This document shows positions 28,179 through 58,653 of a stretch of DNA of 64,000 nucleotides, in pieces. Both the position numbers and the translations under genes were made by a program. Positions within the stretch are counted from its first letter, which is position 1; the number at the start of each line of letters is the position of its first letter. The notes below the pieces were generated by a model that saw nothing but the letters and a program-made list of their open reading frames with translations, did no database searches and was not told where the DNA came from. Source of the DNA: Sphingomonadaceae bacterium (GTDB taxonomy: Bacteria > Pseudomonadota > Alphaproteobacteria > Sphingomonadales > Sphingomonadaceae); NCBI GenBank assembly GCA_019239915.1, contig JAFAZF010000036.1, positions 1-64,000 of the forward strand, in the 5' to 3' direction.

Positions 28179-28292
28179 CGTTCGCCCTGAGTAAGGGCTG
28201 AGCGCAGTCGAAGGCGGCATCGAAGGGTCGCCGCCGCGTGTCCTTCGACGGGCGCCACTTCGACTGCGCTCAGTGGCTGCTCAGGACGAACG
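28179..28292. repeat. dispersed inverted-repeat element, copy A
   Basis: Arms of 35 bp at 28179-28213 and 28258-28292 start with CGTTCG, contain CTGAG and CTGAGCGCAGTCGAAG, and pair with few mismatches around a 44-bp spacer. It lies between purD and the GNAT gene. It is the same family as the copies at 29587, 33191/33525, 55471 and 58550. Confidence 0.75.
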
Positions 28293-29586: not shown

Positions 29587-29704
29587 TCGTTCCTTCCGAA
29601 CGCAGTCGATGCCCAACGGATGGGGCTTCCCTTCGGCTGACCCAACGGGCCAGCCTGTCCTGAGCGCCTGCCCTGCAGGCAGTCGAAGGGCTCAGGGCGA
29701 ACGG
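29587..29704. repeat. dispersed inverted-repeat element, copy B
   Basis: The right arm (29673-29704) has GCAGTCGAAGGGCTCAGGGC then GAACGG. The left side (from 29587) has CGTTCCTTCCGAACGCAGTC with decay. It sits downstream of the HhH gene and downstream of the convergent flavin oxidoreductase gene. Confidence 0.6.
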
Positions 29705-33112: not shown

Positions 33113-33183
33113 GTCACCGCTGTAGCCGCTCGCAAAAGGTGTTGCCACAAGAGAGCGGTAGTTATCGCCCCAGTAGCAGACGT

Positions 33184-33504
33184 TCACGTTTCCGTTCGGC
33201 CTGAGCTTGTCGAAGGCCTGCTCTTCTCTTTGGATGAGGCGAGGCGGCTGATCGTCGGCCAATCGCCTCGGATCAAGGCAAGTTTCTTGGCGCGGCTCCA
33301 GCCCTTGAGCCGCCGTTCCATGGCGAGCGCTTCTGCGCGCGTCGGGAAGGTCTCCGACCAGACGAGCGTTACCGGCAGGTGATCATGTGCGAAGCCTGGC
33401 ACCACGCCGGACCGATGCTCCACCAGCCGACGCTCGAGATCGTCGCTATGGCCCACATAGAAGATGCCGCCGCGGCAATGGAGCATGTAGGTCCAGAACA
33501 TCAC
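33184..33504 (-). CDS. GIY-YIG nuclease-domain protein
   Basis: A 106-residue single-domain protein. The GIY-YIG signature is degenerate: WTYMLHCRGGIFYVGHSDDL (GIF...YVG), with ERRLVEHRSG and the C-terminal catalytic-type Glu in EALAMERRLKGWSRAKKLAL. These nucleases cut DNA with a divalent metal. Small stand-alone members are of unknown role. The last ~12 residues (KSRPSTSSGRTET) are encoded by a dispersed repeat arm. A second identical arm lies 21 bp upstream of the ATG, so the gene is bracketed by a perfect inverted repeat. Confidence 0.85.
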   Translation of the reverse strand: MMFWTYMLHCRGGIFYVGHSDDLERRLVEHRSGVVPGFAHDHLPVTLVWSETFPTRAEALAMERRLKGWSRAKKLALIRGDWPTISRLASSKEKSRPSTSSGRTET

Positions 33505-33554
33505 GGTCGATCAAGACCGAAGAACAGGCCTTCGACAAGCTCAGGCCGAACGGA
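33191..33554. repeat. perfect 30-bp inverted repeat bracketing the GIY-YIG gene
   Basis: The 30 bases at 33191-33220 (TCCGTTCGGCCTGAGC... ending AAGGCCTG) are exactly the reverse complement of 33525-33554. The arms belong to the dispersed repeat family and enclose 304 bp that hold nearly all of the nuclease gene. No flanking target-site duplication is visible. From 33555 to 33760 I see only GTGACCTT three times at 33710, 33733 and 33746. Confidence 0.85.
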
Positions 33555-33760
33555 TCGCTTTTGCGAACGGTTGCTTCCCACCACAAACGGACATTCCGCT
33601 TTCCTACAGCGTGCATGCGGGCGCATGATCGCGTCGGCTCTTTCTGATCGTTGGATTCGCGGACGCGGCCATCGGTCTAAAGTCTCAGCCGCTAAGATCA
33701 CGAAACCATGTGACCTTTGGGCACCACGATCCGTGACCTTCCGTTGTGACCTTCGACGCA

Positions 33761-55449: not shown

Positions 55450-55470
55450 TCCTCTTCCTCCGGCCGGGAT

Positions 55471-55553
55471 CCGTTCGTGCCGAGCGCAGTCGAGGCACGC
55501 GCCACGAGCGCAGCACCTGTTTCGCGTCCCTCGACTTCGCTCGGGACGAACGG
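55471..55553. repeat. dispersed inverted-repeat element, copy C (inside argD-argF)
   Basis: The left arm CCGTTCGTGCCGAGCGCAGT with CGAGG (55471-55495) pairs with the right arm at 55527-55553 ending CGGGACGAACGG. It sits between argD and argF, so it would form a hairpin in the shared mRNA. Confidence 0.75.
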
Positions 55554-55573
55554 AGAGAGGTTCATTCTCGGCA

Positions 55574-58530: not shown

Positions 58531-58549
58531 AGAACGAACTGGGACAAAT

Positions 58550-58634
58550 CCGTTCGTGCTGAGCCTGTCGAAGCACTGTCCTTCTTTCCCGTTCGAGAGG
58601 AAGAACAGCCCTTCGACAGGCTCAGGGCGAATGG
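58550..58634. repeat. dispersed inverted-repeat element, copy D
   Basis: CCGTTCGTGCTGAGCCTGTC with GAAG (58550-58573) pairs with CTTCGACAGGCTCAGGGCGA with ATGG (58611-58634), spacer 37 bp. It sits between the convergent ends of gcrA and the 58654 gene, where it could end transcription of both. Confidence 0.8.
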
Positions 58635-58653
58635 GTTTTTGTGAAAGGCTCGC

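Follow-up and report, generated by a model that had tools for sequence, protein, structure and literature searches.

A 2025 paper on the Ssn nucleases reportedly describes GIY-YIG enzymes, from Neisseria and from many further bacteria, each cutting single-stranded DNA at dispersed sequences of its own, and the NTS repeats of Neisseria are presumably of the dRS3/CGTC-1 type. Bacterial genomes commonly contain REP-like palindromes. Those tagged with CGTC have been described as short tagged hairpins, dispersed and mostly arranged as inverted dimers, with a CGTC (or TGTC/CCTC) tag and an 8–9 bp stem (Di Nocera et al. 2013, PMC3733652). The portions of that paper considered here equate the Neisseria repeat dRS3 with CGTC-1, associate no dedicated transposase with the CGTC repeats and leave the mover of this superfamily as an open question; the string ‘GIY’ is absent from its text (PMC3733652). 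A search of open-literature titles and abstracts (including PMC12306157, PMC12707154 and PMC10319059, in the portions available) returned no link between GIY-YIG proteins and such repeats. Six sequence words were searched in the open literature: four from the CCGTTCG hairpin arms described below gave no occurrence, and a dRS3-like word was found in one Neisseria paper.

We analysed a 64,000-nt stretch of a Sphingomonadaceae assembly, referred to as the window, in which an intact, single-domain GIY-YIG nuclease gene is enclosed by inverted hairpin arms (Table 1). The arms are exact reverse complements over 30 bp, and the inverted repeat lengthens to 45 nt at 89% identity, heading the list of the window's 179 inverted pairs (≥18 nt, within 1.5 kb). 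GIY-YIG is the sole Pfam match of the enclosed frame (E 5e-14); the left arm encodes most of the last 11 nuclease residues (RPSTSSGRTET), and the right arm precedes the GTG start by 20 bp. Coordinates, Pfam match and arm placement agree with a preliminary description made from the sequence alone, which had reported a perfect 30-bp inverted repeat around a 106-residue GIY-YIG gene, with one arm encoding the C-terminus of the protein and the other preceding its start.

Table 1. Positions of the GIY-YIG unit and of related arm sequences in the window.
Feature	Position	Strand	Remarks
GIY-YIG nuclease gene, 106 aa	33184..33504	-	GTG at 33504, ATG at 33501; Pfam match
Left arm, tag first	33191..33235	+	CCGTTCG tag, hairpin and subterminal CTGCTCTTC; perfect part 33191-33220
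Right arm, inverse orientation, tag outermost	33510..33554	-	Perfect part 33525-33554
Repeated unit	33176..33585	.	Matches C59:11407-11817 (95%) and C24:14404-14838 (93%, vs 33161-33596)
Gene-less tags-outward dimer	28179..28292	.	
Single degenerate arm-like sequence (site of the pair previously placed at 29587)	29682..29704	.	
Gene-less tags-outward dimer, 3-nt loop variant	55470..55554	.	
Gene-less tags-outward dimer, same arm family	58546..58638	.	

The left arm forms a hairpin with a GGCCT..AGGCC stem, a tandem GA and a TT loop. Across 155 distinct arms of this CCGTTCG-tagged type (hereafter T), the five outer stem pairs are Watson–Crick in 97, 96, 88, 89 and 73% of cases, as against 65, 79, 53, 34 and 62% after partner shuffling. 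Several pair types are represented, the next two positions are unpaired and the tag CCGTTC is likewise unpaired; the tandem GA is descriptive only, because the inner motif and the type of the first pair were preset in the search.

Arms of this family are dispersed through the window's genome, where the core CTTCGACNNGCTCAG occurs 169 times with at most one mismatch, compared with 20 occurrences of the reversed pattern. Among 98 listed exact copies of the core, neighbours less than 1 kb apart comprise 31 tags-outward pairs and one tags-inward pair. The members of 29 tags-outward pairs are 39–57 bp apart, whereas the other two pairs, at 328–329 bp, are both GIY-YIG units; a further unit, on contig C59, is absent from the 31 because one of its arms has a mismatch. 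Within the window, three of the four stand-alone pairs claimed in the preliminary description stand as dimers with CCGTTCG tags outermost, but the pair at 29587 does not: no inverted repeat of ≥14 nt was found at that site, which holds a degenerate remnant. The three dimers fold better than shuffled sequences (z −6.9 to −8.2), and single window arms fold no better (z −0.4 and −0.5).

Eight GIY-YIG matches were found in the window's genome, one of them within a 655-aa UvrC-like frame. The unit itself is present three times, on contigs C26 (the window), C59 and C24, with 93–95% identity over 410–437 bp, the same arms and unrelated flanks; the C24 copy of the nuclease gene is interrupted, and the copies share ~15–42 bp per side outside the tags. 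The genes neighbouring the window unit, DUF1801 and tadA, are located on different contigs in the four relatives where both matched, and no DUF1801 match was listed in five other relatives compared at this locus. A second dispersed repeat (window positions 33572–33754, ~180 bp) adjoins the unit; it contains the inverted pair AAGGTCAC...GTGACCTT, and partial copies, 72–86% identical, lie on eleven other contigs. Next to the C59 and C24 units there is also a short stretch (31–42 bp) related to this repeat. The repeat may be a preferred landing site for the unit; a regular-expression search for intact second-repeat targets over the DNA examined gave 11 matches, none of them target-like.

The association between GIY-YIG genes and flanking repeats was quantified in a family sample of 59 genomes, nearly one per genus, with a repeat called by local alignment of one 300-bp flank against the reverse complement of the other (score ≥18). 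The sampled family is taken to be that of the sphingomonads, since some of its loci coincide with those of named records, as L074 does with L156. The family set comprises 110 listed non-UvrC-like rows, 108 of which entered the main analyses (72 from 20-kb stretches, 29 loci and 7 from the window's genome); two rows from genome G007 lie outside this count and outside the protein tree and were scored later, one with arms and one without. An inverted repeat between the flanks was found at 84 of the 108 loci (85/110 with the G007 rows, with no repeat at threshold in the other 25/110 listed loci), versus 6 of 2810 control positions with matching geometry taken from the 20-kb stretches. Tags face outward on both sides at 83 of the 108 loci, on one side at 9 and on neither at 16. 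When 150-bp flanks of gene ends were compared, a repeat surrounded 57/72 GIY-YIG genes, with ends set approximately by adding 60 bp to the domain, versus 2/263 ORFs of 80–160 aa and 2/708 longer ORFs from the same stretches; this comparison with other genes, proposed as a check in the preliminary description, favours a specific link. UvrC, which carries the same domain, showed no flanking repeat at any of eight loci. T units L010–L013, L018 and L029 carry an extra inverted arm, located ~50–95 bp outside the gene's 3′-end arm.

At the phylum level, 150 genomes contributed at least 69 loci, several from one genome or genus; 29 came from a search (L268 and L291 belonging to the window's own family) and 40 were taken roughly in list order, and protein classes were set by profile without use of the flanks. 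The repeat-type classes together carry a repeat in 22/32 cases (20/30 outside the family), comprising 16/21 in the CGTC-type class and 6/11 in the T class (4/9 outside the family, with two of the misses being weak members). The YhbQ/UPF0213 class has a flanking repeat in 0/31 cases, its profile having been built from 11 of these 31 rows with their flanks already seen; the corresponding values are 1/6 for unassigned proteins and 0/270 for shifted control windows. Phylum-wide, the flanking-repeat link depends on protein class, and the YhbQ result led us to reject the generalization that all single-domain GIY-YIG genes have arms.

Relatives of the T nuclease in named genomes partially overlap the family set; among the best 80 of 570 retained, 68 reach the repeat threshold, including Chloroflexi and Methylobacter records, and 64 bear T arms tags-outward on both sides. 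One record, titled Bacillus sp. 2B10 (L198), holds a sphingomonad-like T unit and is probably a mislabelled or contaminated assembly. Plasmid and phage records yielded distant relatives only, all below 60% identity (17 and 19 records, respectively). Phages, among them those of Rhizobium and Microcystis, encode GIY-YIG relatives at 34–41% identity.

From genome to genome, a given gene type goes with a given arm type, and the two have diversified together. A protein tree of 108 GIY-YIG domains from the family set contains two deep clades, one with T arms and the other with CGTC-tagged and other arm types; the sole exception, L090, was labelled T by the regular expression, and its arm is truly of CGTC type. 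With ‘no arm’ included as a label, arm types change 29 times on the tree versus 68.7 times after shuffling, with none of 200 shuffles as low; the labels of L002, L120 and L099 (Ca/Cb/E) are doubtful and, like that of L090, were kept as assigned. Types Cd (CATTGCGAG) and Cc (CTGAACTTGTTTCAG) are each confined to one subclade, and within the T clade loop length splits by subclade (9/0 vs 1/15, p 5e-6). Fine branching is not trusted, since the tree rests on few columns and contains many weak forks.

Repeat abundance follows the same partition. Genome-wide counts are higher in genomes with the cognate clade for T (Mann–Whitney p 7e-5), Cc (p 6e-7) and Cd (p 3e-6), while six non-cognate comparisons gave p values of 0.016 to 0.50. 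Exceptions are present, since three genomes in which no T gene was listed have 38–65 T repeats, and fewer than 20 are found in 10 of the 21 genomes that have one; together with the non-cognate values, they indicate that genomes rich in one repeat type tend to be rich in others. Spacing shows a further correspondence: among 150 listed Cc copies, the tags of 56 neighbour pairs point outward and those of 2 point inward, with 50 of the outward pairs at 55–141 bp and six at 356–369 bp, all six of which enclose GIY-YIG genes. Taking the listed Cc copies and those of the window's genome together, all eight wide pairs (~330–370 bp) hold a GIY-YIG gene, whereas gene-less dispersed pairs are tags-outward dimers mostly 40–140 bp apart. 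The recurrence of the same enzyme type with the same repeat type across many bacteria suggests an enzyme that targets its own repeats and probably propagates them.

Evidence bearing on movement comes largely from G001, a congeneric relative assembled as a single contig, in which a CGTC-type unit is present in five full-length copies, ~95–98% identical to L032, at unrelated sites. A further locus, L364 (C1:2918600-2920000), has lost the middle of the gene while keeping both arms and, judged by its sequence, is an apparent intermediate between gene-bearing and gene-less forms. Only one full-length copy has a clear 96-aa gene, three stopping early at 58–81 aa and one carrying indels; with most copies broken, activity in this genome may be past. 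Copy L363 shares only the tag-to-tag segment with the others, which have ~20–35 bp of common sequence outside the tags on each side, so the ends of the unit are not fixed.

The preliminary description had proposed looking for empty sites and movement in relatives, with a mixed outcome: multicopy units occupy unrelated sites, and one interval lacks the unit in five species, but no base-exact empty site was found on comparison of unit copies, second-repeat targets and L363 flanks. That interval, around L032, spans 866 bp in G001 and 180, 434, 436, 929 and 1334 bp in the five relatives, where it contains no match to the unit, an absence established at neighbourhood scale. No target duplication was seen at the unit copies, and no syntenic L363 flank was found in eight other genomes, where the listed rows consist only of the unit or short repeats. 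Units at shared positions in related species, as exemplified by L174/L177, point to vertical inheritance as well. In two Methylococcaceae records (L218 and L220), the T unit is 90% identical over 414 bp with different flanks, hinting that it may have spread between genera.

The dN/dS values of 11 T-type pairs range from 0.01 to 0.24, indicating purifying selection on the T-type gene, and the Y, Y-x-G, R, H and E positions, which we take to be the typical GIY-YIG active-site positions, are invariant or nearly so in the aligned nucleases. The AlphaFold model of the window nuclease is of good confidence outside the tail, which is for the most part encoded by the left arm, and its nearest solved folds are UPF0213 proteins followed by Slx1. 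Given the proximity to Slx1, a nuclease for branched DNA, hairpin-directed cutting by the modelled enzyme is plausible. Two other assignments were considered and set aside: a homing endonuclease, for which group I intron endonuclease models of NCBIfam matched 3/7 scanned proteins weakly, below threshold, and the window protein not at all, and a defence system, for which a PADLOC scan of three proteins gave one weak match in one relative and none for the window protein.

We consider it probable that the enzyme and its cognate hairpins constitute a small mobile element with gene-less derivatives. The minimal mobile unit would be tag-hairpin, GIY-YIG gene and hairpin-tag; the enzyme would recognize its own hairpin and tag and cut at or near the tag, the most likely substrate being single-stranded DNA, for instance the template of the lagging strand. 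The tag-to-tag segment could then be copied elsewhere by repair or replication. GIY-YIG enzymes hydrolyse DNA and are not known to form a covalent intermediate, and joining would therefore probably need host repair or replication. The short dimers could represent non-autonomous derivatives served by the same enzyme in trans, as REPINs are by RAYTs. The GIY-YIG counterpart of REP/RAYT envisaged in the preliminary description gains support from the flanking counts and the multicopy units, with cleavage and copying as its conjectural steps. A broader formulation, to which we give roughly even chances, is that lone ~100-residue GIY-YIG nucleases form a class in which the nuclease is the sole encoded enzyme and mobilises both ~0.4-kb tag-to-tag units and, in trans, gene-less dimers.

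Specificity of an enzyme for a repeat is possible without mobility, and a resident site-specific nuclease, acting as the Neisseria Ssn enzyme is said to, might recognize the dispersed repeats and thereby adjust DNA uptake, recombination or genome maintenance, with the repeats near the gene being autoregulatory and the copies arising by ordinary recombination. Strong purifying selection, unit positions common to some related species and the broken copies in G001 are all compatible with such a role, and the sequence shared past the tags suggests segment duplication. Nevertheless, this account is unlikely in view of the multicopy units at unrelated sites in two genomes, the restriction of L363 to the tag-to-tag segment, the existence of an internal-deletion copy and the two-sided, tags-outward arrangement at 83/108 loci, a layout that regulation does not need.

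We know of no transposition by a lone GIY-YIG enzyme, and another dispersed repeat adjoins the window unit, both of which would fit a different transposase moving the palindromes in trans with the GIY-YIG gene as a passenger. That possibility is very improbable, however, because the GIY-YIG protein tree predicts the arm type and the wide pairs among the listed copies enclose a GIY-YIG gene in 8/8 cases; moreover, the portions considered of the published CGTC survey associate no transposase with these repeats (PMC3733652). The concern raised at the outset that repeats this common may flank a gene by chance draws on the abundance of the arm in the window's genome (169 matches), but is refuted by the control positions (6/2810), shifted windows (0/270), ORFs of both size classes (2/263 and 2/708) and UvrC (0/8), leaving it a negligible probability.

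If the mobile class of lone nucleases is real, it would provide the enzyme lacking so far for both the CGTC REPs and the CCGTTCG superfamily, with each clade using its own hairpin; and if movement occurs, GIY-YIG chemistry would join the known ways of moving bacterial DNA. The present data name a candidate enzyme for each repeat type, including the CCGTTCG tag not found in the literature searched, and even without movement they offer a large collection in which the specificities of nuclease and hairpin are paired.

Compared with described systems, the closest solved structures by both sequence and fold are those of UPF0213/YhbQ and Slx1; however, YhbQ-class genes lack flanking arms (0/31), and the window gene is set apart from YhbQ by the 36-row T clade and the arms, not by profile score. 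Like GIY-YIG homing endonucleases, these are apparently selfish GIY-YIG genes, but the window gene has no intron or DNA-binding tail and has dispersed hairpins at its borders. With inverted repeats at its ends and multiple copies in unrelated places, the window unit recalls an insertion sequence/MITE pair, although it encodes no DDE, HUH, serine or tyrosine transposase according to Pfam. The CGTC REPs correspond to arms carried by the sister GIY-YIG clade, whereas the window arms have a CCGTTCG tag and a 5-bp outer stem followed by tandem GA. The Ssn nucleases reportedly share a single-domain GIY-YIG protein and a cognate sequence dispersed in the host genome, which lowers the novelty of the enzyme–repeat link; the enclosing unit, the CCGTTCG superfamily, co-diversification and the multicopy evidence, with its deletion derivative, are apparently new here. 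REP/RAYT systems and REPINs offer parallels in a small enzyme gene flanked by its presumed repeats, dispersed inverted dimers and co-diversification; the window unit differs from them in having a GIY-YIG fold where they have an HUH tyrosine transposase (IS200/IS605 type), and a CCGTTCG tag in place of GTAG.
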